64,000 bases of DNA, from NCBI GenBank assembly GCA_000231825.2, contig JH720339.1, positions 557,285 to 621,284 of the forward strand, in the 5' to 3' direction. Position numbers and translations under genes: made by a program. Under the pieces are notes generated by a model. It had not been told where the DNA came from, made no database searches, and saw nothing but the letters and a program-made list of their open reading frames with translations. Each line of letters begins with the position of its first letter. The stretch's first letter is position 1. This DNA is from Tetrahymena elliotti 4EA. Taxonomy: Eukaryota > Ciliophora > Oligohymenophorea > Hymenostomatida > Tetrahymenidae. Below are positions 10,033 through 63,282 of this stretch, piece by piece.

Positions 10033-11410
10033 ATGGAAAAGACAAGTAAAAAGCTCATCTAAATTTTAGCTGGATTCTAATAATACGAATGGGGTAAAAT
10101 TGGAGAAGACAGTTAAGTTTATTAGATAGCCAAGTGCTGGAAAAAAAATTTGCCATTAAATTAACCATATGCTGAGCTTTGGATGGGTACTCATGTAAAC
10201 TGCCCTTCCTTAGTAATAATTGATGATAATATAAACATAAAGTTAGGAGATTTAATTGGTACTTAACCAAATGTTTATTTAGGAAAAGAAATTTAGTAAA
10301 AATACAATCTGAAAGACAAACTGCCTTTTTTATTCAAAATTTTGAGTGTCAATAAGGCTTTAAGTATTTAATCACATCCTGACAAAGAGCTAGCTAAAAA
10401 ATTGTTTGAAAAATTTCCTAATGTTTATAAAGATCCCAATCATAAACCTGAAATGTGTATTGCTTTAACTGAGTATGAAGTTCTATGCAATTTTTGCAAA
10501 CCTGTTGAGATTGTTAAAAACCTTGAAGAAACTCCAGAATTAATGGAAGTTATTAATAATCAAGAGCTAGTGACTAAATTTATCTAAGATTAATCAAAAG
10601 AAAATCTAAAAAGCGTATTTTGTGCTTTATTTGATGCTACTCAAGAAAGTATTACAAAATAAGTGCAAAAATTGATTCTAAGAGTGTAACAAAAGAAATA
10701 TAAAAATGAGAGAGATCAATTAGTCTTAAAATTAAATTAATAATATCCAAACGATATTGGAATATTTATTAGTTACTTGCTTAATTATTTTAAAATGAAT
10801 TAAGGTGAATGTCTTATCATGGCTGCTAATGAGCCTCATGCTTATATTTCAGGAGAATGTATCGAATGTAATACATTAGAAATTACACTAAAAGCTATCA
10901 TAGATTATCAAACTAAATTATTATCAATACATAAAAATAGGTATGGCTGCATCTGATAATGTTGTTAGAGCTGGTTTGACTCCAAAATTCAAGGATAAAG
11001 CCACATTATGCGATGTAAGTTAAAATTGTTAGTAAGTAGAGTAATTATAGTTTTTTTTATTTATAAAATAGATGCTTACTTATGAAATGAAAGACCCTGC
11101 AATCTTAAAATCATAAGTTACTTATTAAAATGAAGCATAATGTTAAATGATTGAGCTGTTTAGCCCAGAAGAATACAAAGATTTTAGCTGTCTCAAAGTA
11201 AGATCAATAGAAGGAGATATATCTAAATCAATACAATTAGAAAGTGGAAGCATATTTTTAGTAATTGAAGGACAAGCTTAAGTATTTGCAGATAAATAAA
11301 ATAAAGTGAATATTAATAAAGGAGATACTTACTTTGTTCCTGCTAATATTGAGTTTACATTTAAAAACACTTCAAATTTAACAGTATTCATTTGTTATAG
11401 TAGATATTGA
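10033..11410 (+). CDS. mannose-6-phosphate isomerase
   Basis: Type I phosphomannose isomerase, which interconverts fructose 6-phosphate and mannose 6-phosphate in the cytosol and feeds GDP-mannose and glycosylation. Model: join(10033..10867, 10941..11014, 11072..11410), 415 aa, normal for the family. Visible family blocks are PYAELWMGTHVNCPS near the N-terminus, LSIQSHPDK (Gln113 and His115), NHKPEM (Glu140), NEPHAYISGECIEC (His269), and after the first intron MAASDNVVRAGLTPKFKD with TLCDMLTYE. The four named residues are the expected zinc ligands. Intron 1 (73 nt) and intron 2 (57 nt) are GTAA...TAG and removing them restores the family sequence across each joint. Many in-frame TAA/TAG codons sit in well-conserved protein, which directly supports the ciliate code. 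Confidence 0.97.
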
Positions 11411-11619
11411 AGAATAGAATAAGTCTTAGATAAAGAATCTATTGTAGTGTTAACATAATCACCTAAGCATTTATTTATTTCCATGAAATAATTTGATTTT
11501 AAAACTTAGTTTAAAATATTTTTCTATTATTGTAAATACTTATTCAATCCCTAAACAAAAATATAATTGCAAAAACTTTTTGGAACAAAAATATATCAAA
11601 TTCTTGAACTTTAATTTCA

Positions 11620-12960
11620 AAAATTTTTTAATTTTGTAAAAAATATGGAATAAAGTATGTATATGATTGTCCTTTTAATTCGCTTACTGATAAAAATTTT
11701 ATCAAATACTTATTATTTGTTAGAAAAAAATTCTGATTACTATCAAATCCAGATTTCAAAGATATGTTATATTTTTGATATTACCTTTAAAAGTTCAATT
11801 TATATTTTAGAAATATTGCTTATTACTAAATGGCAATAATCATAATATTAATAATAATACTTTAGTTAAAAATATGATAGCATTAAAGATTAGAATAACT
11901 AAAAGAGTGCTTAGATGCTAAAAACAGATTAATGTTATTGATTTAAAAAATTAATAAAATTAGGTTATTAATAATGCAAATGGGTAAAGATAAGAAGAGT
12001 AAATTTAGTAAAAAACGAAGAAGGAAAATAAGAACATATTGATTTCCAAAGAAAAGTAAATATAATAAGAATAAAATGGAAAGATTGAAAAAAAAAAAAA
12101 AAAGAAGATAAAAAATAAGAAATAAAATAAAACAATCAACCACACTAACCATGGATATGTAGAGCTTGTAAGGCTACGAATAAACTAAAACATAAGATTT
12201 GCATAGAATGCAAATTGGCAAAGTTTCAAAGATATGATAGAATGAGAAAAGATTTTGGATAGTAAGATTACTTATTTATCTTTTTTATAGATTTTGAGTG
12301 CAATTCTGTTAATGGTCAATTTGAAATCATAGAATTTCCACTAAAAGTTCTTGATGTAAGTAAAAATGAGATTGTTGAATCTTTTGCTTCATATGTTAAA
12401 CCTAGTTCTAGTATAACAAATTTTATAACTCGTTTAACTAAAATAACAAATGAACATGTAAAAGATGCTCCTATCCTTTAGTAAGTCTTAGTAAATGTTG
12501 AAAATTTCTTGTAAAAATATCTAGATGCAGGAATTGATAAATGTGTAGTTGTTTATGACAATGATAGTGACTCCCAATTTTTGTTTAATGAAAAGAAAAG
12601 AAAAAACTTAATACTCCCTACAATCTTTGAGAAATATATTTGCCTAAAATCAGTTTTCCCTATTGAAATCGGTAATTAAGCACCTGGAGGTTTAGCTAAA
12701 ATGCTTTAATTTTTAAACATTTAATTCGAAGGTAGGTAGCATTCCGGTTCTGATGATGCTATGAATTAAGCCAGAGTTGGATAAAAACTATTATAATTAG
12801 GTTACAACTTCTCAAAAAGATAAGAAATAGCATTAGGATAGCCTATGCAGGACTTAACAAAGAATAAAGAAGGGCATTGAAAAATCTGAATAAGTAAGGT
12901 TTGCTTAAGTAAAATAAAATGTGATGAGTCTATTCCAATAAAAGAAAATCCTCATCAACA
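11620..12960 (+). repeat. tandem duplication, unit 1
   Basis: This unit matches 13080-15300. Shared landmarks include upstream noncoding sequence (taattttgtaaaaaatatg near 11633 and 13093, then a similar stretch ending tttgttag), the exonuclease gene and a downstream remnant (gatgagt..attccaa/ct..aaaagaaaatc, near 12932 and 15247). Copies are clearly diverged, and each has indels relative to the other. Boundaries are approximate. Confidence 0.75.
11874..12880 (+). pseudogene. ERI1-like exonuclease copy 1, frameshifted
   Basis: The catalytic half is open in one frame (12089 to TGA at 12878-12880): a RanBP2-type zinc finger (W-x-C-xx-C-xxx-N-x6-C-xx-C, WICRACKATNKLKHKICIEC), FIDFECNS, DSDSQF and HSGSDDAMNQAR. 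These supply the D, E, D, H and D of a DEDDh exonuclease. The Gln/Lys-rich head that matches copy 2 (for example NQVINNANGQ) is in another frame, starting around 11874. The two frames meet at a run of 16 A (12088-12103). One more A would join them. Without that, the second frame meets TGA at 12086-12088 and has no ATG before 12242. The tail is also shorter than in copy 2. It could be a decaying duplicate or a sequencing error in the A run. Confidence 0.75.
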
Positions 12961-13079: not shown

Positions 13080-15300
13080 TTTTAATGTTTTAATTTTGTA
13101 AAAAATATGAAACAAAGTATGTATATAAATATGTTTTTTTAATTATTTTCTGATCAAAACTTTATCAAATTCTTAATATTTGTTAGTAATAAATTCTTGT
13201 AGACAATCAAAATAGACAATTCACTATAAAATCAAGGTCTCAACTTTAAGTGAAAGTAAAAAAGTATTTTAATTTTAATTTATTTAATTGCTCTTAATAT
13301 TTATATTATCAACTTGGTTATTTTAGATATTACCTATAAAAGCTCAGCTAAATTGATGCTTTAGCAATATTGTTTATTACTAATTAATGGAAGTATTTCT
13401 CTAAGTTCAACCAAAGTTCAAAAATTAATATTTTTTTATATATTAAATTATTTATGGTCATTTTTTTATACTGCAATCTTACATTCTTTTTGATTAATAT
13501 ATTCCAATATTCATATAGAAAAATTCATCAAACAAAGCCAATACTTTTTCTCAAATTTAAGACACAGAAAGAATATTTGACAAGAATATGATAGAAATCT
13601 CATGAAATTGTTTTAATTTTTAATCTATATTAAAATTTAATTATAAATATATGGCGTTTAATAGAAAATCTTATATTTAATTTAAACAAAAAAATTAGTA
13701 AAATAATTAACTCCCAAACAAAATTCGTTTATTGCAAAAATACAAAATGGAAAATTATATAAATAAGAATTACTAAAAGCCTTCAAGCAATGTTCAGTAT
13801 GTCAGAAAAAATGATATACAGTCATAATAGTCATCTGATAGCTAAGGAGAAAGGATCAGTTATGAGAGAAAATAGAACACTTAAATCAATAACAATCAAA
13901 ATTAAAATTAGCAAAACCAAACAAAATAATCATAATAATTTAGTTAAAAAAATGATAATAGATAGTAGAATAACTAAAAGACTGTTTGGATGATCAAAAC
14001 AGATTAATAGATTATGAATAATAATGAAGTTAGTGATGGACAAAGAGATAATAATGATTTAAAAAATGTAAAAAATTAGGTTATTAATAAAGCAAATGGA
14101 TAATTTAATCCTTTCTAAAAATTAGAAGAGCAGATTTACTAAAAAATGAAATAGGAAAAGAGCTTAAACATGGCTATTCTCAAAGAAGAAAAGAGAAAAT
14201 AATAAGAATAAAATGGAAAGATTTAAAAACCAAAGAAAAGATAAGAAATAAATAAAAACAACGAACTAAACTAACCAATTCTTCAAAATAATAATCAACT
14301 AAATCAATAGCCTCAGGTCTAAGATAATTAATAAGATAAATAGAAGAATTTAAATGAAAAAAAATAAGAAAATAATAAACGCGATAAGTTCAGAAGAAAT
14401 GAAAAGCATAAATAAATTGAATAAGGATTCCAAAATGCATTATGGAGATGTAAAGCTTGTAAAGCTATGAATTAATGGAAACATGATAAGGTGTGTATGT
14501 AATGCGGTTAGTAAAAGTATAGATTATATGATAGAATGAGAAAAGATTTTGGATAGTAAGATTACTCATTTATCTTTTTTATTGATTTTGAGTGCAATTC
14601 TCTTAATGGTCAATTTGAAATCATAGAATTTCCATTACATGTTATAGATGCAAGTACAAAAGAGATTATTGAATCTTTTGTTTCTTATGTTAAACCTAGT
14701 TCTAATATAACAAAATTCATAACCAAATTAACTAGAATAACAAATGATCATGTTAAAGATGCTCCTATTCTTTAGTAGGTCTTAGTAAATGTAGAAAATT
14801 TCTTGTAAAAATATCTAGATGCAGGAATTGATAAATGTGTAGTTGTCTATGACAATGATAGTGATTCCAAGTTCTTATCTGATGAAACTAAAAAAAAGAA
14901 AATAAAACTTCCTACAATCTTTGAGAAATATATTTGCCTAAAATCAGTTTTCCCTATTGAAATAGGAAATGAAGCACCAGCTAGTTTAGCTTAAATGCTT
15001 AAATAGTTGAACATTTAATTCGAAGGTTAGGAGCATTGTGGAGCTGATGATGCTATGAACTAAGCCAGAGTTGGTTAAAAACTATTATAATTAGGCTACA
15101 ATTTCTCAAAAAGACAAGAAGTAAAATTAGGCTAACCTAGCTTATAGATTTCTAATCAATTACATAATCTATAATATAATCAATATAAATAAGAATACTT
15201 ACTTTCTCAATAGTAAAAAGAATAAAAAGCAAATGAAATTAATTTTGATGAGTTTATTCCACTAAAAGAAAATCTCATCATCAGTAAATGATTCATAAAA
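13080..15300 (+). repeat. tandem duplication, unit 2
   Basis: Second copy of the block at 11620-12960. It contains the same upstream leader (13093 on, including the attttagatattacct..aaaag segment near 13320 that pairs with 11775) followed by the intact exonuclease gene. Its coding head is longer than in unit 1. Boundaries are approximate. Confidence 0.75.
13651..15291 (+). CDS. ERI1-family 3'-5' exonuclease with RanBP2 zinc finger
   Basis: Intronless frame of 546 aa. The most upstream ATG after an in-frame TGA is chosen (MAFNRKSYIQ); a later ATG at 13747 is a good alternative. Residues 1 to about 260 are Gln/Asn/Lys-rich and probably disordered. A RanBP2-type finger follows (W265, four Cys, last at C285; seven rather than six residues between Asn and the third Cys). 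Then comes a DEDDh exonuclease domain of about 180 aa: FIDFEC (D312, E314), FVSYVKP, LTRITNDHV, YDNDSDSKF, LPTIFEKYICLK, and EHCGADDAMNQAR (H462, D467). This is the ERI1/3'hExo pattern, known to trim small RNAs, histone mRNA ends or 5.8S rRNA. The RNA-binding SAP domain of animal ERI1 is absent and the zinc finger may supply RNA contact. Substrate here is not known. Confidence 0.9.
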
Positions 15301-41839: not shown

Positions 41840-44800
41840 ATGAGAGAGTTGTATTTTTATTATTAGTATGATGATGAATTTAATATTGAAAGAATAGATT
41901 TAGTTGATTACTTAGAAGAGAATGATATTGAAGATTTAGATGCAGAAGTTGTTTTGAAAATATTATAGATTAATAATATTGATTTTGATTAAAAGAGTAT
42001 TTAAGTTTATAATAGCGATAGTGGATAATGGGAGGAAATAGAACATTTTTATGTTTAAGTTGATGAGCTATTTGAAGAAGATAATCAATATTTTTATGAA
42101 AATGGCATTCGTGTTTAAATTAAAAAAGGTTAACAATAGTATCAATAGTTTGAAAATGAGTAGTAATTATAACAATAAATTGATTAATAACGATTTTACT
42201 AAGATTTGCAAGATATTAATTACTATTACAGCTAAAACTTTGAATAGTAAAAATTTAATGTCATCGTTTTTGAAGAATTAAATTAGATTAAAAGCGCTCT
42301 TAATCAGTTTTATATTTATAATGATGAATAAATCTAAAGAAATGCTCAGAATATTGATTCTTTATATTATGAAATTCTTGAGAGAAGAAATGATATTGAG
42401 TAACTAAGTAAGTAAATATCAAGTTATTTTGAATAAGGAAGGAATAGATTTAATTCTGGAAATGGAGGATTCACTAATAAATCTACTTAAAAAGTTAATT
42501 TATTTGCTAATTTAACAGAATAAAATGAAGAAACACCAAAGTTATTTTTTCAAGAAAGCCAAAAGTCTGAAGAAAAAAATTTTTTTGGTGGTTTAGTTAA
42601 TACAGATAATGATGTAAATTTCTTTAATAACAGCAACAATAACAAGGAAGAAACTCCTATTTCTATATTTGTAAATAATACGAAATCTAATAGTGAATTA
42701 AGAAATGGAATTGCTATTAAGGAAACTAAATTAGATAGTATTGTAGAGAATGATAAGTTAAATAAATCACCTATGACTTCAAATATTAAGTTTAGATAGG
42801 GCAGCAGTGCAAATATTAATTTTATACCAACAACTCCTATGACAAAACCTTCTAGTAATTTTTAAATGATGCAAGGAATTAGTAACTTTAGTAATTCTAG
42901 TGTTATTCGTATGTCTATTATGTATAGTGAGCCTCTAGTAGTAAGGAAAAATAAATTTATTTATCCTGCAGGTGAACCAGTCGAGTATGAATAGGAAATA
43001 TTGTAGCTCACCCGTTATTTTTAAAAGTGCAAGAATAATGGCGAAATTAATATCAGAGTTGCTAATTTAGACAATCTTGATGAAGAAGTTATGAGTTCTT
43101 AAATTATTCATATATCTTGTCATGGAGACTTTAGCAAGGAGTCTTAAAAATATTACTTGTAATTTGAGGAGAAAAATTGTGAGCTTAAATGTGTAACAAC
43201 AGAACAATTTAAAATTTTATTATAAAACAAAAAAGAGAAACCTAAATTAACCTTTGTAAATGCTTGCCACTCTGAGGAAGTTGGGTTAATGTTTTTGAAT
43301 TCTGGAATACCTTTTGTTGTAGCTGTTTAGTCAAATCTTAAAATATAAGATAAAGCTGCTTAAATATTTTCTAACTCTTTTTACATGGGGCTTATGAATA
43401 AGTATTCAATTAGAGCAGCATTCAAAAGTGCTAAAGATGCTCTTATTTCTAAGCATCATTAAGATTGCTATACTTGTTGCTGTGCTCATCAGCATACTGA
43501 TAATTGTGAATGGTAATTAATTATTTTATCAAAAATATAATCAAGATGTATATAAAAATTTATTTTAATTAGGTTATAATATGCTATGGACCATGGTTAT
43601 CAGGAAGCTCATAAACTACATGAAAGGTTTGTTTGTGACTGCTACAATCCGAGTAGATCGGATAGTGTTAAAAATCCAATTTATCATAAATAAAGTTGTA
43701 ATTAAATAAAAGAGTTTTTCTAATTAATTGCTGATGATAATAAGATGGATGAAATATTTAATTTACCTAGTGATAAATTTATTCATGGATGCTGTTGTTA
43801 AGATGAAAACACAACCCATGATGAATCTGCTAAATTTAAGTTATTGTGTTTGAATGATACTTTTGATTACAGTTTTAATTTTGAAAAAGGAGATATGAAT
43901 ATAAAATATAATTTTGACTTATATAATTCTAATTTTAGAAGTTAATTTAAGTTATTTGGCAGGTAAATTTTATTTTTTAAAAATTCCATTCTTGACATTT
44001 TTATCTTTATTTAAAGAAATGTAGAAATGTATGAAATATTTAACTCGTTAAATGACTGCTCTCATAATAGCTAATTTGTTGTTATCTATGGTGAGAGAGG
44101 ATCAGGTTTAACATCTATTTCTAAGAAAGTAGCCAGGTAAAATTTTTTGTTTTGAAAAATATCTCTTTTATATTTTTTTTGTTTTTAGACACTTAAAGGA
44201 AAGAGAAATTGTGAATGAAATTATAATAGAAGATTTTGAAAATGTAGATAGAGGTATATCAAAATTTAAAACCAAATTGAAGAAATTTAAAAATGGAAAA
44301 GAAGGATCTTAGCCATACTATACTCTTATGATTTTAGATAATTGTGATGATTTAATAAATAAAAATCTAGAAGATTTTACAAAATAGCTATCAAATACTG
44401 CTCTGAATGTTAAATTTATCATAATTACTCACTTTAAGCCTAATTTAAAGCTAAATGAAGCAGTTATAAATTACATAGAGCTCAAACCCTTAGACAAAAA
44501 AACAGCTTATGATATAATTAGTCATCATATAGGCAATTAAATTGTAAGTAAAGCAAAAGATATTAACTTTGCAAATACCCTTGATAAGATCTTAGAAAAA
44601 AAGTAAATTTTACCAAAGTTTGTTATGGAAATAGTTTAAAATATTAAAAATGGCTCTGATTTGTAAGATTTGCTTATTAGTTAAGATCCTCTTGATCTCA
44701 TTATGAAGTAACAAACTTCTTTTTTTTTATGAATAAAGTAAAAATTTATTCAAAATTATAAAGAAAATTAAAAGAAAATCAATTAAAATATGAAATGCTG

Positions 44801-46869
44801 CTAGTTATTTCACTCTTTCCTCATGGTGTTTCTGTAGAAGATTTGAAATATTTAGCTTCTAAAAAGAAAATCCCACCCAACTGGGAATAAATTATGCTCT
44901 AATTAACATCTGAAGAAGTAATTGACCCAAATCACCCTATGTCTCATAATGAAGATACAGAAAGTGAAGAAAATTCTGACATAGATTCTAGCAGCTAAAG
45001 TGATATTGGTAGTATTACAGCTATAGCAGGGTCTTATGCTAATGAGCACCATCATTTTAAAATTGGATAATATTTTTGGATGAGTGTTTCAAGAAATGAT
45101 TTACAATTTATTCAATTTAAAATTAAAAAAAATATCCCCAGATGGCTTTATTCAAAAGAGGAATATTCCATAGATCTACTTCAAAAAGAAGTACTTATTT
45201 TAGAGTACTTATCTTATTTTGCTAAAAAGATGCTAAACTGTATTAAGTAAGAAAAATACTAAAAACTTAAGATGGTGGATTATTCTTCTATTGTTGACTA
45301 TGGATTATTTAAAATATCATTTTAGAAAGATTGGTTTTAAGAAGATGATGAAGATTAAGATACAGATGAAACTAAAACAAGTGATCTATAAAATCCTAGA
45401 TTGAGTAGAAGCTACTCTGAGAATTTTGAAGAACACATTTTCAAGAAATACAAAAAGAACTTAGATAGTTTATTCAAGCTGCATGAACAAAACTTGTATG
45501 TTTATTTGAAGAAAGATGATTTGATGAATTTAATAAAGTTTATGAGTAAGCTATTTTTTGGTTATTTTATTCTTCAATTTTTATTTTAATGTAAAAATAG
45601 ATTCATCTAATTGCCATGAAAAAAGAATTCTTAAAGAAGCCCTCAAAGATTTGTGTGTAGATATACCTTCTATCCATAAGTTGTTAGATCACAAAGAAGA
45701 TGCTTAAGAATAATGCCAGAAAGCCATTAATATTTTAGATGAATTAATTCTATGCAGTGATAACTTGCCTTTTTTAATAGCCAAGCTCAAAATTTAATTT
45801 ATTCAAGCCAATTTATATTTTGATCAGATTGACTTTTAAACTAAAAATTAAGAGGAATTTAGAATTATAATCAACTAGTTCAAAAACATTAATGAATCAA
45901 TTTAAAGTTTATCAAACCATAATGAATTCAAGCATCAAAAAAATATCTTGTAAATCAAATTTTTTTAATTAAACAAAATAAACAACAATTTATTAAAAAA
46001 TATTACATAAATTGTTAAACTAAAGAAAAACTTATTATGTTTTAAGAAACTTTCAATTTTATAAATTGATCTAAAATTATTTTTTTAAAAAAAGAATGAT
46101 CTTAAAGGCAGAAAAAGCATTATTTGTAGCATACACAATAAGAATCATAATTGAATAAATACTAAACAAAGACTATAAATATGAATTGAAAGATTTACCT
46201 TATGTAAGTGATATGTTAGATTTATTTGGCTCTAAAAAAATGGACCAAAAATTCTAAAATTATCATGATTTAAGCTCTTACTTAATAGAAAAACTTGTTA
46301 TATATTCTCAAGAATTAGCTAAGATAGATGGTTGTAATCTAGTTATCTAAAATGGCAGAGATATTAGTAGTAGTTTAAGCTTACCTAAGAGTATTGAATA
46401 CTTAAATGAATATCCATAAACTAATCTAGAAGTCTTGGTTTCTAAAATTAAATTTGTTGCAGCTTGCTTTTAAGGCTTTATGGTTAACGAAGAATATAAT
46501 GAGTTACAAGTAGAGTCCATCTAAGAGAGTTTAAAGGTATTTTCATAATATTCATTAAATGAACTTAAAGAACAGTGCATTAAGTAGTTTGCCAAATAAT
46601 TTTTGATAAATAAATCTCTTTAAAACAACAAAAAAGTTGAGAAAATACCTTACAAAATCGAATCTGAAATTATCAAGTAGGTTAAATCAGGTCCAGTAGA
46701 AGTAATAATTTTTTATGTTTTTAATAAAATATGAATTTTTAATGAATAATTTTTATTAAATAAATAGAATTTAACAAAGAATATAAAAGAGACATTTGAA
46801 AAAGCATATGAATAGTTAAAAATGTAAGAATCAAAAGATTTAAAAATACCCATCCAAACCAATGCATGA
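41840..46869 (+). CDS. CHAT protease-STAND NTPase protein A (P-loop degenerate)
   Basis: Model: join(41840..43512, 43573..43962, 44017..44136, 44189..44707, 44764..45545, 45601..45949, 46095..46701, 46768..46869), 1,513 aa, all phases consistent. Start MRELYFYYQYDDE. Order: acidic N-terminal domain, Gln/Asn-rich linker, motif MYSEPLV and YPAGEPVEYEQE, then a CHAT caspase-like domain (about 375-540) with catalytic His428 in HISCHGDFS and Cys476 in VNACHSEEVG. A Cys/His cluster follows (CYTCCCAHQHTDNC, 543-556; then VCDCYN and GCCCQDE..THDES). The STAND NTPase has P-loop position 713-720 reading GERGSGLT (Leu for the essential Lys), Walker B ILDNCDD near 778, and a winged-helix motif LFPHGVSVEDLKYL near 918-931. 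The helical C-terminus resembles protein B. CHAT-STAND proteins act as sensor-triggered proteases in bacteria; the role here is inferred. Confidence 0.88.
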
Positions 46870-48341
46870 ATAACCAATCATTTCAATTACCAATTTAATC
46901 ACTTTCTTTTTATTTAAATTAATTAATTTATTTATTATGTACATAAATCATTCTATACATTAAAATATATATTTATATCATTCATTCATTTACTTTTGTT
47001 TTTAGATCATAAAATATTTATCAAAATTATCTCAAGTCAATATTAAAATAAAATAAATAGAAATTTTATAATTTTTTTAAGTACTTACTACTCAATTTAA
47101 AAATCTACAAAGAATAAAGTAAAATATTAAGATAAGTCTTTTTCTTTGTATTAATAGAAATCTAATTGATTTACTTGATAAAAAGAGAAATTATCAATTT
47201 TACATTATTCTTTACTTTAAATCCTTATTTATTTAAAGCAATAAAAAAATAAGACAAGCAAATATAATTTGCTAAAGTTTGAAGTAAAAAAATAAATTAA
47301 GATATGAATAAATAGAACAAATTTTTAAAAGAAAAATAAACATTTTAATATGTAGGCTAATAAGAATCATACCTTAATCTTTGCTTGAAAATTTGCAAGC
47401 CAAAACCTAAATAAAATCCAGAAATTCAAATTTTTAAGATTTGATAAAATTTAAAAACATGGTTTTGAGTTTTAATTTGATTAAGGATTTTAGCAAATCT
47501 TAGACCAAAATGATAAAATTTCATATGATCAAAAATTATTGGAGGGTCAAATTTCTGGTTATTTATTGTGAAATTTTTATAAAAAGATATAGAATAAAAG
47601 TAATTCAATTAAAAAACCTTATAATTAGGCTAAAATATAAAATAATAAATAGGATTTACTGATTAATAAGATCAAAAATATAGATTACTTTATTCCTAAA
47701 ATTATGGATTTTATTTTTGAATTTTTATCAAATAAATTACTAAATTATTACATTTAATTTGCTAATTATTTATATTATCATCTCAAATGAGTCAAATTAG
47801 TGATTCATTTGTTGATAGGATGTGTTGATGGTATTAAGATTATTAATTTAGTATTTTCTAACATATTAATCATATGTGCGACTTTTTAGTAATTAATTAG
47901 ATTTTTAGCAGAGATATTTGTTAAATTTAAATTTGAGTTATGTTAGAAAAATCTGTACACTTTTGCAATTTTTGTTAATGAGAAATTTCACAATCTATCT
48001 ATAGATTAATTAATTTTTATAGCATTAAGGAATTATTATTTGGTTTATATTCATAAGCAAATCTATGCAACATTATTTACTTTTTTAAAATCCTCTTAAT
48101 ATTTTAGCTTTAGTTCATGATAAATTTTAACAAAAAATTAATATTCACATAAAAAACAATAAACTAGGGTATTAGTATACCAAAAAGATAAAGTAAACTC
48201 CTTTAATTAAATATATTAATAGAATAAAAAGAGTTTCTTAACAATACTTGGCAAAGGTCAAAGAGTGATTGATTACTCAAGCAATAACTTTCTTTGACAA
48301 GCTCAAAATTAGAAAGTGAAAATATTTTTGAATAAATAAGG
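46870..48341. other. intergenic spacer between paralogous CHAT genes
   Basis: AT-rich 1.5 kb with no supported gene; separates the two CHAT-STAND genes, which share direction. Confidence 0.6.
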
Positions 48342-51300
48342 ATGAGAGAAAAATAGGTTTTTGTTAAATATAGATATGCAAGGCATGATGAAGAAACTAG
48401 CTCTTAATTGGATGATGAAAATTAGTAATGGTACATAATTGATTTAAGCAATTCTATAAATGAAGGTGAAATAACTTACCTGACATTTGATATGCTAGTT
48501 GAAATTCTTAAAGATGATAATGCTAAGTTCCAAGAAAATAATATAAAGTAGAAGAATGATTATTATTGGATAACTGTTAGTGAAAAAAATTTTGGTATTG
48601 ATTTCAGTAATGTAGAAGAGGATGATTTAGAGGAGATAGAAATAGTTCTTCTTTTAGAGTTGTAGAAATCTGAATCACAATAAATCTTTGAAAATGAAGC
48701 CATTTCTAGTTTATAAAAAGGTATAGATTCAATAAATGCTAAAATAGAAAGGATTAGTCAGAGGTAGAGTGACATATGTAGATTTTTTTAGTTTGATAAT
48801 GACATATGCCTTAAAGATATAATTGAAGAAACTTTAAATAATCAAATAGATAGGCAAAGAGATTTAATCAATAATTTTGTTTAAGCTACTTTGAACTCAT
48901 TACATGAATATTATAGCGCTTTATCGTAATAAATATAATCAGTAGAAAGTAAATAAAATTAATCTATGCATGTTTCAACAACTGGAATTGGAATGATTGC
49001 TAGAAGTTAGAGTTTTAATGCATCATAACAATTCATGGAGTAGAGTTTTTAGTATAGGCCTAATCATAACCAACTAGTAAATTCCTAACAAAGTTTTAAT
49101 GCACATATGAATAACAATGATTCTAAGCAATTATTTAACAATTAATACTTTCAGCAAAGCATAGATTTTGATATTAAAAAATAAGAAACAAAAGAAAGTT
49201 TATAAAGTGGTGAGCTGAATAAATAACAATCTTAGCAAATGAAAGATTCTGAAACAGAATAAACTTCTTAAAATTAAAAATAAACTATTAATTTTTTTGG
49301 AAATTTGGGAAAAGAGGATGAGGTTCGCAATAAGGCTAATTCTAATCTATCAGACTAGAATCTCTTTTCAATAGGACATGTTGATTCTAAAAAGATATAA
49401 ACATCAAGTATTTTTAACAATAATGGATTGTAAAGTAAAAGTGAAAGCCAGAGAAATTAAGAGTATTCTCTAACAGCTAATAATATTTAAGGTTCTTTAA
49501 ATGATCTTGATAACAAAGAAAAACCTATATTTTAAATTAAAATTGCTAGTAATTCTAAAGACAGTAATGAAGAAAAACCACCTTCCTCTGTAAAAGCCCC
49601 TATTTTATTTTCTAACATACCTTAAGATGATGAGGCTGAAGAAGTCGATTTCTTTAAGAGCATTAAATAAAATGCAAACAAAGCTAATCTCTCTGTTCAC
49701 CCTAATTCAACTGATACTTAATCAAAAAATGTAGAAACTGAGCAACCTTAAAATAAAAAAAAAATTTCATCTGGCAGCAACTTAAGTACAAATATAGTTA
49801 ATAAAATGTTAGGATAAAACTCTACTAATTCTAAAAATAGACCAAGTCATCTTTCTCCTGATCCTTAACAATTTTAAACATCAAGCAATAAGCCCTCTTA
49901 TGATGCCTAGGCAGATAGTACTACCTCTACTAGCCTTATTAAAAATAAATTACCAAATTCATCACATTTATTGCCACATAACAATAGTAAAAGCATAGAA
50001 ACATAGGCTAGGAAACCAGTCTTAAGAGATTACTAAAGAAGGAACAGTAAATTTAGGAATTCTTCTGAAAATAATCATAATACAAATAGTAAAATGTTTT
50101 AAAGCTCACATTCTGGTGGAAATTCCAATCCTGGTGCCAAAGGTAAAGCTAATAATTTAACAGATATGACAATAATGTATAGTGAGCCTATAGTAAAATT
50201 ATAATTCTAGGCTAATATGTAGTCAGGAGCTTAGCAACCATATTTACCTGCAGGGGACCCTGTTGATTATGAATTAGAAATCCAAAAACTTAATGAATTT
50301 CTTAAAGAAACTAATAAACAAATAAAATTAGATATTGTTGTAGCAAGTTTGGATAATTTAGAGAAGGCTTTTAATAGAAATACTTAGATTTTACATATTA
50401 TGTGTCACGGAGATTATTCTGATAAGGAGTAACAATATTATTTATCCTTTGAGGATGAAGAATCAAAGCTTGATGCTATTACAAGCAAGAGATTTTCTGA
50501 GTTTTTAAAACAAAAAAATTGCAATGTTAAGCTGGTTTTTTTTAATGCATGTCATTCTGAAGAAGTAGGAAAAATATTTTATGAAGCTGGTATACCATTT
50601 GTCATAGCTGTTTAGTCTGATTTGAAGATTGAAGATAAAGCAGCTTTAACTTTTTCAAGTAGTTTTTATATGAATATCTTTTCAGGTCGATCAGTTCTAG
50701 AATCATTTGAAAATGCCAAAATTTCATTACAAGCCAAATAATATGAAGGCTGCTTCACCTGCTGCTGTGCTCACTCTCATGATTAAAATTGTTTGTGGTA
50801 AATATTTTAAATATTAAGGTTTATCGATTGATGTACAATTTTTATATTAATTTACAGGTTTGAAGAGGCTATGAATAATGGTTTTGATAAGGCACACGAA
50901 CAACACTTACCTTCACCAAAATGTAAATGCCCTAATTCTAAGAAGATGATACACGAATATGCATGTGAATGGGCAAATGATTTCCTTAAAAAGTATAAAG
51001 ATAACTATGAAGATTACTATGATGAAGTTGTTAGTAACGATTAACCATTATTTGTTTGTTGTTGTCATGGGTAAGAAACACCTCATGATGAATCACTTAA
51101 GTTTAGATTAATTAAAAGAGAAGACTAAGAAGATCAAAAAATTATGTCTGATTTACCAGAAGGAAATATTTTAGAAAAAAGTAATCTGGATTTTAACCAT
51201 CCAATATTCTAAGACCAAAGCAAAATATTTGGAAGGTAAATTAAAAATGAATAAATTAATTCTAATTTAATAATTTTTGTTTTTGTTCAAAAGAAATTTA

Positions 51301-54300
51301 GAAATTTTTAGGATGTATAGATGCTTTATGAATAACAACAAGATAAAGTACAGATTTTTAGCTCTTCATGGAGATTTGGGTATGGGAAAAACAGCTGTTG
51401 CTAAAAAAGTAGCAAGACATTTAAAAGAAAGAGGTCAGGTAGTTGAAATTATTTTTGAAGATTTTGAAAGAATGAAAACAAAAATTACTAAATTTGAACA
51501 AAAAATGAGACTTGGGTATCATACAAAAGAAGTTGCGTACAACCATTTGAAAGATAAAAAAGTTTTGTTTATCTTAGATAACTGTGATGATCTAATCAAG
51601 AATAATAGATTTAAATTTGAAACAACTCTTAATGAATTAGCTTAAAATACAACAGCTAAATTTTTAATTATTTCTCATGAAAAATTTGATTTAAAGCTTG
51701 GTTAAGGATAAATTCAATAATTCACTCTAGGAGAACTTGGTGATTTTTATGTTAAAAAAATAATCGAATACTATGCAGGTGATACTATTCGTGAGCACTC
51801 AAATAATCCTTAATTTAATGAACAACTATCAGAATTGATTAAAATTATGCCAAAGTCACCTAAATCTATTATGGAAGCCCTTCAAAATATAAGCGAGAAT
51901 ATGGATATTTCTTAAATTTTGACATCTCTTAAAAGTAACTAAATAGGTGATAGACAAAAAGAGTTCACCACCTTCAACCTCTTGATGAAGTAAGATATTT
52001 TACATAATAATAAATTACTTCAATATTAAAAATAAATATTTTCTTATTTATAGGGATTTAAGACAAACAAGTTATTAGGCATACGATATGCTTCTATTGA
52101 TTAGTTTATTCCCTCATGGTGTCAGTATAGAAGATTTAAAATTCTTAGAAAAAAAGAAGAAAATTCCTCATGATTGGGTAAAATTAATGGAATGTTTAAC
52201 TCTTTATACAAATGAAACTGCTGCAAATAGAACATCTGAGCTGGCTTAGCATGAAATGCCTGATATAAGTGGATTAAAGAGAATGCAAAGCAAAAGACTC
52301 ACAATATTTTCTCAATTTAAATAAGAAGAAGATAATATGGAAGAAGATGATTTTGATAATGATTAGTAGCATGAGGAATCTTATCGCTATAAGAAGTTTA
52401 AAAATGGATAATATTTCTGGATGAGCGTATAACGTAAATTTGATGTCGTTGTATTTAGAATCAAAAAATTTGTTGTAGAGCAGTTAAAGTAATAAGAATA
52501 CAGATAAGACTTATTTCACAAAGAGATCTTGATTTTGGAATACCTTTCAATATTTTCAAGAAAATTACTTCATAATTTAAAAGAAAAATCTCACCATTAA
52601 GAGAGATTAATTGAGTATTGTTCTTTAAGTCACTCTGGCTTATTCGGAGTTCACTATGTCCCTTCGAACTAGCTACATAAATCTCAACAATCCTAATCTG
52701 CTAAATCTAACAGGATCCAAGAGACTGGAGAATCTGATAATGAATATTATGAAACTACTCCTGAGCATGTTCACTGCAATTCAAGAGGTTTCAGTGAAGA
52801 TAGAAAAATAAGTGTATCCCATAGAGACTCTGTTCATTTAGACAAGAAATAATCTGATAAAGTATAGCAAAAGCTATTTTAAAGTTTAACTCCTATTGAT
52901 GTGTTTAAGTTACATGAAGGTAATTTCTATTCATATCTAAATGTCGAAGATCACAGATAAATAATAGCTCACATAAGTAAATTTCAACTAAATAATTACT
53001 TTAAATTAATTTTAATTGTTTTATTTAGATAGCAAATAATGTGATGAAAAATAAAAGTAAAAAATTAAGAAACACATTTAAGATTTATGTGTAAACATAC
53101 CATCAATCCACAAATTATTAGATGAGCTTTCTACAAGTGAAGAATAGTGTGTCTAAGCAGAACAGGTAATTGATGAATTGCTAAAAAACCACTAAAACTT
53201 TTAGTTCTTAGTGGCAAAATCAAAACTTTTGTTTTTAAAAATATCATTGTATATTGAAAAATTTTTATCTGACCATATGAATGTTTCAATTGAAGATGTT
53301 ATTCATAGAGATGAAATAGATGGTTTTAATGAAGAAGTAGATAAAAAATTTACTGAATTTGATAGAAATGAAGTTTTCACGTAAATTTATATTTTTGAGA
53401 ATCAAAAATTAATTTTTTTATTATTAAAAGAGAACTGATGGAAATTGAGAAACAATTTATTATTTTTTATTTAATTTATGTTTCATTCAAAAAAAATAAA
53501 GAAAATGAACTCTCTCACACTTTTGAGTAAATTCTTAAAGTTCCTAAGGATTCAAGATTTAATGGAGTCAAAGGGAAAGTCAATTTAATTTTAGAAAGTC
53601 TTATTCCTAAGCTATTGCTGAGGATAAAAGAGCTCAAAAAGAAAGATGATTCAATTGAAGAAGAAAAAAAGGATATTAAAATGGGACCTGAAAGTTTGAA
53701 TATTTTAGAGGGCAAATTAATTTTACTCAATTCTCTTTTTGAACTTGAGTTCAATACTTAATTCTAGCTTAGATTCCTGGAACTCGAATAGACCATAAAA
53801 GTCTTTGAGAGTAATGGTCTCAATAGCTTAATGATTCAAGCTACAATAGTATACTGCAAAAAAAAACTTAATGGACTTAAGAATTCTAGAGATACTCAAA
53901 ACCTGATAAAATTAAAAAAAGATATGATAGATCCTGCTCTAAATAATTCAAAAATATGGAAATTGACTAGCTTAGAAGCTGATTGCAAGAAAATATTAGG
54001 AGAAATTAATGATTAGCTCCATCATATCAGTTCTAATGTTTTCTAATTTATGAAAGCTGCCCCTATTATTTATTAAGATAAAAAGACTCCTTACGGCCAT
54101 ATTATTCGCCTAAATTAATCATTTAAAAGAAGAATTACAGGTAACAATTTATCATTAAATGTTAATTTAACTTCATTAAAAATATATAAAGATGTCCTAA
54201 GTAAAATGGGAAAGGAGCTCAATCTCAAATTCGAAATTCAGACAATAAAGCATTTTAAAGAGTGCCTGTAAAGGGGTTCAAAGGTAAAATTTAAGTTTTA

Positions 54301-57300
54301 GTTATTTGTTGATTTCTAATATTTTATAAAAATAGTTTATGTGTATTACTTGTGACGATGTAGAGGAAGATGGTATTATTGTAGAAGAAGATTAACTTCC
54401 TTTAATGAGAAAATATAAAGAAAATGAAATGGAAGAATATTATAAATAGCATTATGAAGAATTTGGTTAAATAGAAATTTTAATGTTATGTGCTCCTAAT
54501 GGCCTTAAGCTAAAAGAGATGTTTTGTAGGATTATTGATAAGGTTAATGACTCAATAAGAAAAATGTAAAATAATCCAGACAAAAGGTAAACTAAGTCCA
54601 AATCTACTGATGAACACAAAGGTAAATTTATTACAAATTCATAAAATTATTTTGAAGAATAACATTTTTTTTATTAGACAAAGTTGATAGGGATTCTGAA
54701 CTTAGAAGAAGACCAACTATTATTGCTTTCTAATTTAAGTAAATTAAGAAATACGTAAGGCCTAATTTTGGTAGAAGACCAACTATGATGAGCTAACATA
54801 TTTAAGAAAAAGAAAATGGAGATTAAAGTAATACAAGCAAAAAAAATAAAAAATAAACATTGAACAAAAATGGAAAGGAATAAGATTTTAGTACAAATAT
54901 TGAAGAGGATGAATATGAAGACTTTTATTTATACTATCTAAGAGAATTTGCAACTCAACAGTTCTAATTTGAATTTTTAACTTAGCTCTTATCAGATAAG
55001 CCTGATCCAAATCCATAAGCACATATTAAGAAGGCTTTTAATTATGCAAAATAAAAAATGGTTGAAGCTACTATTACAGTTTGTTCTGAAGAAATAAGAG
55101 ATGAATAAACCTTTGAATAAATTCTAGGAAAAGGTCCTGATCTTTTTCTATCTGATCATTGGATGGATGCGTAAAATTACTTTGAAATTTTTTAATTAAT
55201 AACAAAAAAATAATTTATTCAAAAAGAAAATATGAATTCAGAAAAGGGTAAATCATAGATATTACTTCTGAGCGTCCTCCTTAAAATTTAAATAGAAATT
55301 TCCTTAGAATCTCAGGAAGAAAACAAGATATTTACATTATTTTGCAAAAAATTTAAGAAAGCTGTGTTAATATTTATGGATAGATGGGTATAGGAAAATC
55401 TATTGTAGCTTAGCAAGTAATTTAATTTTATTAAGTCGTTTTTTTATTATAAAATAAATTTATTTCTCATTTGCAGCTTTTAGAAAAATAATTTAAGAAT
55501 CAAATAAACTGAATAAAAATATTTTAATTTGAAAAAATTTATGAATTACATTTTTATTAATCACTTACAAAATAACTACATTAAAAGTTGAGTGTTATGA
55601 CTAGAGGAATTTTTAATTTTTTATAGAGCTCTCTTTAATTTTAACTAATAATTAGAGAAATAAAAAAACAGAAATTTGAAATTGTATTTTAATAATAAAT
55701 TAGATTGCTTACTTTACTTTTACAAGAAATACTTTTTGTGATGGTGTTTACTACTTTAGCCTTAAAGATCTTCCAAATCATAATTATGATCTTAGAAATT
55801 TGATGTCTTCACTGCTAGGTTTGTAGTTTAGTTAAGATGTAAATGAATATTTCTAGAATTAGAAAAAGATGCTTTTAATTTTTGATGATTTTGATATAAT
55901 TATTAACAGCTTTAATCCTTCTAATGAATATAAGATTAAATTTTTTGAGTACCTATTCTTTTATATAAATAAATTTGATATTCATTACATCCTTGTGACT
56001 CAAAAGTCTCTTCGTAGCACTCTTGAGTAAAAAAACTGTCCACTCAGCTGTATAAAGTCGAATATGCATTACCATGAAATAAAACTTTTCTCTAGAAAGG
56101 AATCACTAAACTTCTTGGATTCTTTGTTAGATTTAGAGCAAATAAATATCAAAAAAGTAATTGATAATAGAAGGTAGTTTGAATAGATATATTAAAAAGC
56201 AAAAGGTAATCCCAAAAAATTGATAGAATAGTATTGTAAAAAATTTGGTAACCCAAAGATACCAAAATAATTTTATCAAATTCTTTAGCCTCAAAATATA
56301 ATATTGTCAAACTAAACTAATATAAATACCTTGCCATTTTAGTAGATAAATAATATTCCTGTTCCACATAATACAGCTTATGGTACAAAAAAGAAAGCTA
56401 AGATTGCAAATTCAAAATCAAGAGAATTTAATACAACTCTTCCAAGTTAAGTGTAAGTCCCTGCTTTGAATATGATGTAAGTGAATTAAACTTTTAGCTA
56501 AGGAAAAATGCCATCATCAAATCCTAATAGTTCAAGATAGAGCTACATAAGCAACTACACAGGAGAGTAAAGCTAGTATTATAGTTAATTTTAAATGGAG
56601 TCTAGTCTACCAAACAGTCAAGTTTTTAATTAAGATCATAAATTTTATTCAAATAAACAATAATTACAATCTAAAAATTCTACTCAACTCCAGTAAAATT
56701 ACTATCACTAAGGTAAATTAAATTAAAATATATCTCAATCAATGATACTTGGAAACAATTTGGATAGCTCAAACTCCTCCATAATTTACAATTAATAGCT
56801 AGGAAATTCTTTTGGAGAGAAGAAGTAAAACTCTTCAAACTCTCTTCAAATTCATTAAAGCAACAAGTAAAACTTGCTAAAGATTACTTAAAGCAGTACT
56901 GTGAAGAGAGATGACCTATTAAAGAATAAAAATTCAAGAATTTTATTATAATAATCTAGTTTGATAGATTTTCCTAATTAACATCCTAGTTAATTTTAAT
57001 AATCTAATAGTGGGTATGTATCCAATTCACAGTTATTTCATAACCCTTAAATGCCTCATTCTTCTTTTACTGGCCCTAACCACTAGCACCACACGTCTCA
57101 TCCTAATATTTCTAAAAATTTTATTTTAGATAATAATTAAGCAAACAGTACTGGAAATACACCTCTAGTTGGTCCTTATAATAATTAAACTATCCCATCA
57201 TTTTCACAAATTAATCTTCACAATTCTTAACTCAAAAAATAACTTACACTTTAATCTGCTCATTAAACTCATTATAAGAATGAGTAAAAAAAATCTAGTT

Positions 57301-59609
57301 CTAAGGACTCTAGGATGCATTCTTTAAGCTAAAGAAATAAATAAGAAAAAAATTAAACAGTTATTTTAAGTGATACTGAAATTAATAGAAATGAAATTTC
57401 GAATATTTAAATTCATAAAGACACCCCTATTAGCGATTTCTACTACTCGAATAAAAATCCAGATTATAACTAATTTGGATAAGAGGAAATATTTTAGAAT
57501 CAAATTGATTATGCTTAAGATGAAGATGATGAAAGATTGCATAAAAGAGAACCTAGTGGTAATCAAATTAGTGGTAGAAATCAATTTTAAAGTTAACAAA
57601 TGTATGGATCTTTTGCTAATTTGACATAAGAAAATCTGTAAAATAGTTAGCCAAATCTGAATAATAGTGTTTAGTTAGGGTCGAATAATAATGGTACTTC
57701 TTCTAGAAAGCTAAAGAAAAATAATAATAAAAAAGTAGCCAAACATTAAGATAAGCAGCTATAAGAGTAGATTTAATAATATCACAGTCTAGATGATGTA
57801 GAAATAGATGATTAAGATGATGATGAATATTCTAACAATGAATACACTGATAAAACTGAAGAAAAAGATTTAGAAAAATTAGAGGGTTAAGAATTTATTA
57901 AAGAACTTTTTGGACAAAGTAAATCAGAAATTTAATGTGAAAATCTGTCAAATTCTGCATCATTGAAGTAAACAAAAAATAGTGGCAGTGCTCAAAACCT
58001 AAAGTCATCTCTTTATTCAAATGATTAAAATTATTCAAATAACGGAATTCCATTTGAATACTAAGTTAATAATATTGAGGAAGAAGATGAGACTAAGTCT
58101 GATGAAGAATTTATAAATTAGTTAGAAATATAGAAAGAGCTAGCATTCAACTAATTAAAACAAAAGAAAAAAGAAGCTGAAGAAGAAGAAATCACAGAAG
58201 AAACTAAAGAATATATTCAATCTTCGCTTCAAATATAAGGAGAAACTCCTTAAGTTTAAAAAGATTTATCATTTGAATTATCAAAAGGTGGAAACTTTAA
58301 CAACTTATAAGATATGGTTTCTGATTCAAATACAGAAAAATGTAGATTAGATGACTCTATGGGTAAAGAATTATAATCTGCTCAATCATCAAGCAAACAT
58401 AACTTAAAAAAATCCTAATAACATCATCATCATCATTAATAATTTGTGGAGGAAGAGTATTTACCTTAAAAAATCTAAGATGAAGAAGAAGACGAAGAAG
58501 AAGAAGAGGAAGAAAAGTATTAAAGACAAGGTTCTAAGCACATTAAAAGTAGTAATCATCATCCTCACCACTAACACCATACCCAAACTAATAGCAAAAA
58601 GTAAATATTTGAAGTGGAAAAATAAGAAAGAATATCTGATCAAGAAGATGGCTATGAAGAAGAAGATGAAGATGGAGAGCTCAATGAAGATGATGATATT
58701 GATGAAGCTTAATCTAAAGATTAATTTGCTAAAAATATTTTCTTTGAAAAAAATGAATTAAGAGTTTAAGATGATGATATAGATGATAAGCCTACACTTA
58801 AAAATGCAAATCACAAAGAAAATACTTAAAGAACTCCTGATAAAAGTATGATTGTTTTACCTTACTATATCAATCATTCCAATAGTTTGAACTCTCCTCC
58901 AATAATACCACATTCTCCAAATTAAAATATACTATTCTCTTAATATCATCATTATAGCAGCCACCCTAATTAACAACACATTCCTCAACATTAGCAATTT
59001 ACATTTTTAAATTAATAGCAGTAATATATTACTAATTAATAAATACCCCATTAATAATTTAATCCAGAATTAAATATGCAAAGTTATATATCAACGTCTC
59101 AACATCAATCTCTTGTACAATAATCTCCTAGTCCCTACACCTAATTCAATTATAATAAAAAATAAAATTAAACTTAAATAAAAGATAACTAATTTGAAAG
59201 ATAGAATAATTAACTTGTAAATATTAATATATTGAATAATACTAATCAAAGAGGAATGTTGGAATTCACTGAATAGATTTCTGTAAAATTAAAATCAAAC
59301 CAATCTCTTCCTTCTGTAATAGGGATATAAAAAAGTGATTCCTAGAGCTCAAAAGCAACCGTTCAAAGTGCAGGAAGTTAAAAAGAGAAGCTCAATTCAA
59401 AAATGTTTGCCCCAATTATATAAAATTAAAATTCATAAGAAAAATAGCACAAAAAGCAGGGAACTAAAAAAAAAATAAAGCAATCAGGTAAGTAAGCCTA
59501 AAACTTTAGTAAAAAAAAGAAAAAGGATTACAATTAATTTAAAAGTAGCAATAACTAACACAATAAATCTAGTTCGAACTTAGAAGATGAAGATGATGAT
59601 GAAGATTGA
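48342..59609 (+). CDS. giant double CHAT-STAND NTPase protein B
   Basis: Model: join(48342..50797, 50858..51235, 51294..51989, 52054..52976, 53029..53380, 53431..54283, 54336..54621, 54678..55170, 55227..55416, 55704..59609), 3,510 aa, all phases consistent. Module 1 parallels protein A: MREKQVF start, Gln/Asn linker, MYSEPIV and LPAGDPVDYELE, CHAT with His689 (HIMCHGDYS) and Cys737 (FNACHSEEVG), Cys/His cluster (CFTCCCAHSHDQNC), STAND with intact P-loop GDLGMGKT (971-978), ILDNCDD (Asp1040), winged helix SLFPHGVSIEDLKFL (about 1195), helical C-terminal part. Module 2: a region 1800-2160 aligns loosely to CHAT, with MCITCDD (about 1888-1894) at the His site and LMLCAPNG (Cys1938), then NFLRISGRKQDI, P-loop GQMGIGKS (2197-2204), DGVYYFSL, LLIFDDFD (Asp2270) and KGNPKKLIEQ. 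Tail 2400-3510 is Gln/Asn/Ser-rich with Glu and His runs. The 287-nt intron before 55704 is the least sure joint. Confidence 0.85.
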
Positions 59610-60701: not shown

Positions 60702-63282
60702 ATGTTTTCATAGTCTAGATAACATTTAGATTATTAGCCTACGGAAAGGATTACTTACAATCCAAATTAAACTATTTCATCTTCTTAAAAAAAGTTTTAT
60801 TTGCAAAAAGATACAGATTCTCCTATTAAAAGTAAAAGTCAATTCTAAAATTCTACAAAGAGTTTAAGCAAAAAGCAATTTGAGTTGCAAGTAAGATAAA
60901 CATTCAGATAGAGATTAGACAAAAAAAAAGAGTTTATGACATAATCTGCCTATCAAAGTACTATGACTTCTTCTGATATAAGGACAGTTGAATAAATTTT
61001 TAATTCAACTCATATGGCATTTTTGGCAGCACCAGATGATCTTTTAAATAAATCACTAGGTAAAGACTACTTGTCTATGAAGAGTTTTACTCCAATGTCA
61101 ACAATCTTAGTTAATAATTAATCTTGGCAATCGTTTGCAAAAAGAAATTCAGATTAGAGTAATACTAGGGAAGTGATGTCAAACCAACTTAATTTTAATA
61201 GAACTTAAAAAAATTTCCTTGTTAATTAAGCTTAAAAAAACTTTACAGAAAACTATGATTTATTAATTGATTCATATAGAAAGAGGGAATAAAAATTTAA
61301 TTTACCTAAAATAAAAGTTAAAAATCCTGAATAAATGCTGAATAATATGGCTAAGTAAGCTAATTCTCAATAAATTGCAACTGAAGGTAATATGCTGATG
61401 GAAAAATAATAAAATGAAGATGATGATGACCCTTTCATGAATTTAAATAAAGAATAAAATGAAAAAAAATTAACTAACTTAAAATTTTATTGGTATTGTA
61501 TCACAGATGATTGTTGGAGACCTGAAACTAGAGAATATCCTACTCTTACACATATTGATGGAGTATATATAATTCATTTTAAATTTGCTCATTATTTATT
61601 TATTAATTTGTTTATGCTTGATTTAGAAAATGTATTTATATGGAGGAATGGGTTTGGATTTATTTAATACAATAAGCTATCTAGATTTTTAAACTTGGAA
61701 ATGGGTAAGCATGGATCAAGCTGCTTAACTTTAAGAAGGGAGATATGGCCATACTGCTCATTAGTAAAATTTTGAAAAATATATTTATATTTATGATGTA
61801 AAAGATATAAAAAAGATTTACTAATATTTGGAGGAGAGAAAAAATATAACTCTCACCTTAAAATGAGATAGTGCTTTAATGATATTTAGATATACGAATT
61901 TGCAAAGAATAGCTGGAATTAGATTAGAACTTTTGGAGATATTATTGAAAATAGAAGAAATCATGCATCAGTTTTAATGACAAAGTTTTTATTTATTTTT
62001 GGTGGTATCAACAGTTACAACAAACATTTGTATGATTTCATATCAGTCAATTTAGAAACTTTTAAATGGTAATTTTTATCTTCTTTAAAATTTTATTCAT
62101 TTATAAAAATAATCATAAAGCAACATGTTACATGTGGAAGGCTTAGAAAAAGGACTTGCTTTCCATTAAATGACACCTGTTTTTAGGGGAGAAACTAAAA
62201 TTGAAAATCCTTATTATAATGTCGAAATTAAAAAATCAAAAGATAAAAAAATTAGAAAAGTAAGAGAGGAGGGTTTGTATGTGTTTGGAGGTTTATTATA
62301 AAATGGAGAGGCAACTAATTAATTAAGAATTATAAAGCTAGGATAAAAACCTTTGAAATGGGTAGTACCAGACATCAAAGGAGCCCTACCTATGGCAAGA
62401 TATTAACATTCATAACATTTCTATGAAGATTTAAATGTACTAATTGTTTATGGTGGTAGAAATGATAATTCTAAATAATATAGAAGCTATAATATGAATA
62501 TTAGTTAAAATGGAATTCTAGGTGATATCTGTATCCTAGATATAGAAACCCTAACATGGATTAGTGTAGAAGAAAATGGTCTTAAAAATCTTTAAAAATG
62601 TGCATTTGCATCATCAATAATAGGATCTAAAATTATAATTTTTGGTGGATATCAAGAAAAGGGATTCGTAAATGCAGACCTTTACATTTTAGAATTAGAT
62701 CAATCTAAGAATAGAAAATTAATAAAGGAGAGCAATAATCCTATGCAGTCTGGTTTTTCTAAAAACTGTATTTAAGTAATGGACATCTTGAACAGTAAAT
62801 TAAAAATGAAATAAACTTAGTAATTATATTAACATAATCATTTTAATCATAAAAGACCACACTGATGTGTTTGATATTTTTGATGAGTTTTCTAAGCAAA
62901 AGATAAAAAAAAACTAAATTAATGATTCAAGCAGTAAAGTAGAATTATCAGAAAATGACGCAAGTTAATTATTAGGAATGAGAACTTATTAACCAATACC
63001 ATAAAGTATACTCAAAAACAGAAAGTCAGTAAATCGGTCATTTTTAATTTCTATGCAATAAAACTAATTTGGACCTAAGTTTAAAGTAAATTTTTGCATT
63101 GATGAAAAATCCATTTATTTTTTTATTTATAATTTAAGGTTGATTAAAATGGAATACCTTCTTTAAATTGTGTACCTGAAGAAGATGATGAAACAGGCCA
63201 GGTAAGTACAAAAATTATTACAGACCAAGACAAATAAAATGTAAGTAAAAATAAAAAAACAGTAAGTTATGCATAAATATGA
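60702..63282 (+). CDS. kelch-repeat protein
   Basis: Model: join(60702..61562, 61627..61763, 61805..62068, 62121..62794, 62856..63085, 63139..63282), 769 aa. All phases agree and an in-frame TGA lies 21 nt upstream of the chosen ATG. The first 260 residues are polar, Gln/Ser/Lys-rich. Kelch motifs then recur, each ending a strand with the double-Gly: YLYGGMG, LLIFGGEKK, FLFIFGGINS, LYVFGGLL, LIVYGGRND, IIIFGGYQE, with linking blocks such as GRYGHTAHQ, NRRNHASVL and MARYQHSQH, and Trp after turns (TWKWVSM, NSWNQI, TFKW/C). Six blades suggest a beta-propeller for protein binding. The 41-nt intron 2 is short but needed to join GRYGHTAHQ to KKDLLIFGGE. The C-terminal 130 residues are polar. Partners are unknown; it lies next to the CHAT locus in the same direction. 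Confidence 0.9.

Follow-up and report, generated by a model that had tools for sequence, protein, structure and literature searches.

Two adjoining CHAT genes

The window analysed here, a stretch of 64,000 nucleotides from Tetrahymena elliotti 4EA (positions 557285-621284 of a contig that measures 722 kb; the genome comprises 90 Mb in 134 contigs), carries two neighbouring genes on the + strand, A (41840..46869) and B (48342..59609), each predicted to join a CHAT caspase-like protease domain to a STAND-like NTPase region and a winged-helix motif. An earlier note, made from the letters alone, had proposed two such same-strand genes, and the spliced models read with genetic code table 6 agree with it, starting at 41840 and ending at 59609. 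A and B are tandem paralogues with the order CHAT, Cys/His-rich insert, STAND-like NTPase and winged-helix motif in their predicted frames, and we consider the chances about even that they act as NLR-like, nucleotide-switched proteases.

Under the standard code (table 11) no open reading frame of at least 250 amino acids was found in the window, whose GC content is 19-28% in 2 kb steps; reading with table 6 yielded long open reading frames, and the genome contains a ciliate telomerase RNA (RF00025, 154.8 bits). Gene A is predicted to consist of eight exons (41840-43512, 43573-43962, 44017-44136, 44189-44707, 44764-45545, 45601-45949, 46095-46701 and 46768-46869) encoding 1,513 residues, and gene B of ten (48342-50797, 50858-51235, 51312-51989, 52054-52976, 53029-53380, 53431-54283, 54336-54621, 54678-55170, 55308-55416 and 55704-59609) encoding 3,477 residues. 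Both spliced models have a single, terminal TGA, with 85 (A) and 250 (B) in-frame TAA/TAG codons, and their introns, all GT..AG, measure 52-145 nucleotides in A and 50-287 nucleotides in B. The codon score of the used frame was positive in all 18 exons and the highest of the three frames in 17 (7/8 in A, 10/10 in B), the short last exon of A scoring near zero with another frame higher; this support counts for little because some of these exons were themselves used to train the codon table. Five of the seven A introns lie at the same aligned residue and in the same phase as B introns, an agreement that is not fully independent because some splice sites of A were picked with B as a guide.

The models started from a small Viterbi gene finder, which, when unaided, parsed the A span as three genes and the B span as two (break at 53649/53681); the later joins were made by comparing the two paralogues. 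This history favours the explanation that the models artificially fused two genes, one with the CHAT exons and one with the NTPase exons, which we nevertheless regard as very improbable: no initial split fell between CHAT and NTPase, which the unaided finder already placed together in A, in B and in C, a paralogue elsewhere in the genome that was returned as one gene, and the introns between the two domains, at 54-76 nucleotides, would be too short for a terminator and a promoter. In addition, P0007, a related database protein from another source, has CHAT, insert and a P-loop (GEMTAGKT) in a single open frame. Because of these unaided joins and the P0007 frame, the CHAT and NTPase of A, B and C very likely lie on one mRNA.

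The CHAT domains of A (42911..43573, residues 358-558; Pfam PF12770, E 8.9e-11, 42.2 bits) and B (50166..50858, residues 609-819; E 1.7e-13, 51.1 bits), like that of C (44.5 bits), exceed the family's gathering score of 24 bits and are beyond chance, in agreement with the earlier assignment. The motifs HIxCHGD, xNACHSEEVG and LFPHGVSxEDLKxL reported by the earlier note are present as written in both genes, the first two reading HISCHGD and VNACHSEEVG in A and HIMCHGD and FNACHSEEVG in B. When the CHAT profile was aligned with PDB 8tl0, their His and Cys corresponded to the caspase-clan dyad (His codon 43121-43123 and Cys codon 43265-43267, Cys476, in A; His codon 50406-50408 and Cys codon 50550-50552, Cys737, in B), and neither residue varies among A, B, C and D2, a further CHAT gene described below. 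Structure prediction of the B CHAT, a check that the earlier note had proposed, returned a CHAT/caspase fold, and the C14 caspase/metacaspase family (PF00656) was not among the families matching the A and B CHAT exons at E <= 1. We conclude that the CHAT domains of A and B are predicted caspase-like proteases whose dyad is intact.

Insert, NTPases and second module

Directly after CHAT lies a Cys/His-rich insert, at 43475..43828 in A (residues 546-643, with CCCAHQHTDNC, CDC...H...C and CCC...HDES) and at 50760..51095 in B (residues 807-898), for which no Pfam family was found in either gene at E <= 5. A pattern similar to that of A occurs in B, in C and in the database proteins P0006 and P0007. 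A subfamily search with A, B, C and D2 as queries (E <= 1e-5, 1,768 candidates) identified eight database proteins with 33-71% identity to B. The dyad Cys is present in all eight and the dyad His in 6/6 that cover it, a count that leaves out P0005 (stretch missing) and P0007 (begins after it), and CCCxHxHxxxC stands directly after CHAT in all six proteins that extend through the motif, leaving out P0008 (stops just past CCC) and P0004 (stops before it). P0006 and P0007 have two more Cys/His clusters after the first, as do A, B and C. The insert may bind metal.

The STAND-like NTPase region of A (44017..44707) has a Walker B-like TLMILDNCDDL at 44322-44354 and a degenerate Walker A, GERGSGLT, at 44090-44113, in which a Leu codon (TTA, 44108-44110) occupies the position of the Lys of B. 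In B, the first NTPase (51312..51989) carries the Walker A GDLGMGKT (51370-51393) and the Walker B VLFILDNCDDL (51562-51594), and the second (55308..56234) the Walker A GQMGIGKS (55378-55401), the Walker B MLLIFDDFD (55869-55895) and a GNP motif within 56202-56234; the Walker A lysine is thus kept in both NTPases of B and lost in A. Against NACHT (PF05729, cut-off 26.7 bits), the second NTPase of B scored 32.4 bits (E 1e-7, spliced piece) and the first was borderline, with 26.7 bits as a single-frame open reading frame and 26.0 as a spliced piece; NACHT was listed neither for the NTPase region of A nor for the first NTPase of C. The proposal of STAND/NB-ARC-like NTPases stands in part: the second NTPase of B exceeds the NACHT cut-off, and the best match to NB-ARC (PF00931) had 19.5 bits, below the cut-off of 23.5. 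Among the NACHT matches listed genome-wide, the top one (contig C46:70803-71228, - strand, locus L010, 47.2 bits) lies apart from A and B.

The winged-helix motif follows in both genes, as LFPHGVSVEDL at 44813-44845 in A (region 44795..44905, with no Pfam family over its cut-off) and as LFPHGVSIEDL at 52106-52138 in B (52054..52976, including the region after it). The order CHAT, STAND-like NTPase and winged-helix motif in tandem paralogues, which the earlier note had put forward, is supported. The C-terminal region of A (45601..46869) resembles the corresponding part of B and contains no Pfam repeat; in B, the exon 53431-54283 is modelled to hold both the stretch resembling the C-terminus of A and the start of a second module.

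This second module would comprise a probable degenerate CHAT (54041..55170, residues ~1800-2140) and, at its end, the second NTPase. After it comes a long low-complexity tail rich in Q/N/S and acidic residues (56304..59609) that shares an exon with most of that NTPase; the open reading frame 55680-59609 had no Pfam match. In the probable second CHAT of B the start motif reads KAAPII for YSxPLV, and both dyad residues are gone, with CITCDDV for HIMCHGD and LMLCAPNGL for FNACHSE (aligned by eye); in C, both are likewise replaced (profile alignment). The best match of the subfamily profile outside the first CHAT falls on this stretch in B (E 0.013) and on the same place in C (E 0.008), scores equalled by 2/300 and 1/300 shuffles, respectively. 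We conclude that the stretch in B is probably a degenerate CHAT.

The two CHAT copies bear on the view that these domains are regulatory or structural and devoid of protease activity, the proteins being scaffolds comparable to TTC28, a TPR-CHAT protein of animals. A role of TTC28 in cytokinesis is cited, and the functions of its TPR and CHAT domains are described as poorly understood (PMC12314368), and the very long low-complexity tail of B would suit a scaffold. Yet the His/Cys pair is kept in A, B, C, D2, D1 (in two frames) and the relatives (His 6/6, Cys 8/8), whereas the probable second copies lose both residues; retention in the first CHAT alongside loss in the second looks like selection on catalysis by the first copy, and we hold the scaffold explanation to be unlikely.

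Further CHAT-type genes and a possible role in nuclear death

The genome encodes at least five CHAT-type genes, the three outside the window going beyond the earlier note, as do the lost P-loop lysine of A, the Cys/His-rich insert and the second module of B. Paralogue C, on contig C30, has the same domain order, assigned partly by eye, and both modules fell in one gene with the unaided finder. D1 and D2 form another tandem pair (contig C29:422830-427228 and 428127-432960, loci L021 and L022). Both genes are large, their CHAT domains are divergent and keep His and Cys (STHIKQ/NCCHSE and ATHIYE/NCCRSE, respectively), and no P-loop is visible in either; the D1 model omits part of its CHAT, and its His and Cys were found in two frames.

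A and B might instead account for the caspase-like activity in programmed nuclear death, CHAT acting in the destruction of the old macronucleus or of unwanted micronuclei at conjugation and not in defence. No C14 caspase/metacaspase match was found in the genome at E <= 0.01, yet searches of that type did detect separase and CHAT. In Tetrahymena, zVAD-fmk is reported to block nearly all of the micronuclear loss induced by colchicine, and an inhibitor-sensitive macronuclear elimination is cited in the same account (PMC4021357). Another article describes protists as lacking caspase homologues, with the origins of such activities unexplained, and yet states that nuclear death appears to be caspase-independent (PMC2829475). 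Moreover, the genome family searches scored only the best candidates, one exon at a time, which tempers the C14 result. Cathepsins and other cysteine proteases may also be targets of zVAD-fmk. We consider this role for A and B rather unlikely. Since no C14 protease was detected, the CHAT genes are nonetheless candidate sources of the caspase-like activity reported for nuclear death in Tetrahymena.

Other features of the window include a same-strand Kelch-repeat gene just past the end of B (60702-63201, +) and two adjoining predicted genes (10033-12880 and 13747-15291) that both contain, as judged by eye, a part resembling the ERI1 exonuclease; in the model 10033-12880 this part stands behind a mannose-6-phosphate isomerase-like part, so that two genes have probably been run together. 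A phospholipid scramblase-like gene (2140-2988) lies near P4-type flippase-like pieces (4029-8673, - strand), named by eye, ~33 kb from gene A.

A putative switched protease and its known counterparts

Under the reading of A and B as NLR-like switched proteases, the NTPase/winged-helix block would keep CHAT inactive at rest, and a signal would be read by the C-terminal region, to which in B a dead CHAT copy and the second NTPase probably belong. On receiving it, B would exchange nucleotide and oligomerise, A, presumably unable to switch alone, would join as its partner, and proteins further along the pathway would be cut by the assembled CHAT domains. Defence would be one of the likeliest settings, and regulated death, of which nuclear death is one form, the other.

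Several results weigh against this reading. A nucleotide switch is not general to both proteins because A lacks the Walker A lysine, and no Pfam family reaches its cut-off in the A NTPase region. The NLR layout is represented by effector and NTPase, and the sensor repeats sought in the C-terminal regions (LRR, TPR, ANK and WD40) had no Pfam match at E <= 1. The second CHAT is not seen by Pfam and profile-profile tests of it were not significant; compared with the first CHAT of A and of C, the second CHAT of B was equalled by 54/300 and 111/300 shuffles. Between the winged helix and the second module, B and C have no detectable similarity (298/300 shuffles equal), and the second NTPase of C had no Pfam family at E <= 5. 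To these are added the unaided finder's splits of both spans, the one in B meaning that its second module could be a separate gene. Finally, a genome-wide search for gasdermin (PF04598) came back empty at E <= 1, although divergent gasdermins would escape it.

Fungal NLRs with CHAT proteases have been described, with their genes near gasdermins (PMC10197012, PMC12881547, PMC9815663). The CHAT-NLR kind is not new, because these fungal examples are known, and the earlier description of an unrecognised eukaryotic architecture was too strong (PMC10197012, PMC9815663). Like A and B, the fungal proteins as there described combine a CHAT protease and an NLR-type NTPase in one eukaryotic protein; unlike them, fungal sensors often have ANK, TPR or WD40 repeats and gasdermin clusters, whereas A and B have no Pfam repeat and the genome no PF04598 match. 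The Cys/His-rich insert and the likely second module (B, C) may set the ciliate proteins apart from fungal members, which were compared by description. Eukaryotes also have CHAT in animal TPR-CHAT proteins such as TTC28, which in corals have grown in number through tandem duplication, but their architecture, as far as described in the source, is a long N-terminal TPR array with one CHAT and no NTPase (PMC12314368). SAVED-CHAT (PDB 8tl0) and the Csx29/TPR-CHAT of Craspase share the CHAT fold and the His/Cys positions, but are prokaryotic, and in place of a STAND NTPase their sensor is a SAVED domain in the former and TPR together with a CRISPR effector in the latter. Some plant paired NLRs, too, are adjoining NLR-like genes with one P-loop intact and one degenerate; their effector domains are unrelated, however, they are often head-to-head, and the pairing of A with B is putative.

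As far as these searches show, what is new here is the ciliate host, the Cys/His-rich insert, a likely module of dead CHAT and second NTPase, and a tandem pair with one disabled P-loop. A bolder proposal is that ciliates lacking caspases and metacaspases run a distinct caspase-clan switch made of CHAT-STAND proteins, with a metal-type Cys/His insert, a dead protease copy and second NTPase as regulator and a switch-disabled tandem partner, and that the caspase-like activity behind programmed nuclear death, whose source has long been missing, comes from these proteins; we think it quite unlikely to hold as a whole. The five or more CHAT-type genes provide a short candidate list for that activity, and to regulate such a protease through a second module of pseudo-protease and NTPase, as is likely here, would be unusual. 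If a defence role is true, CHAT-NLR immunity would extend from fungi and bacteria to ciliates.
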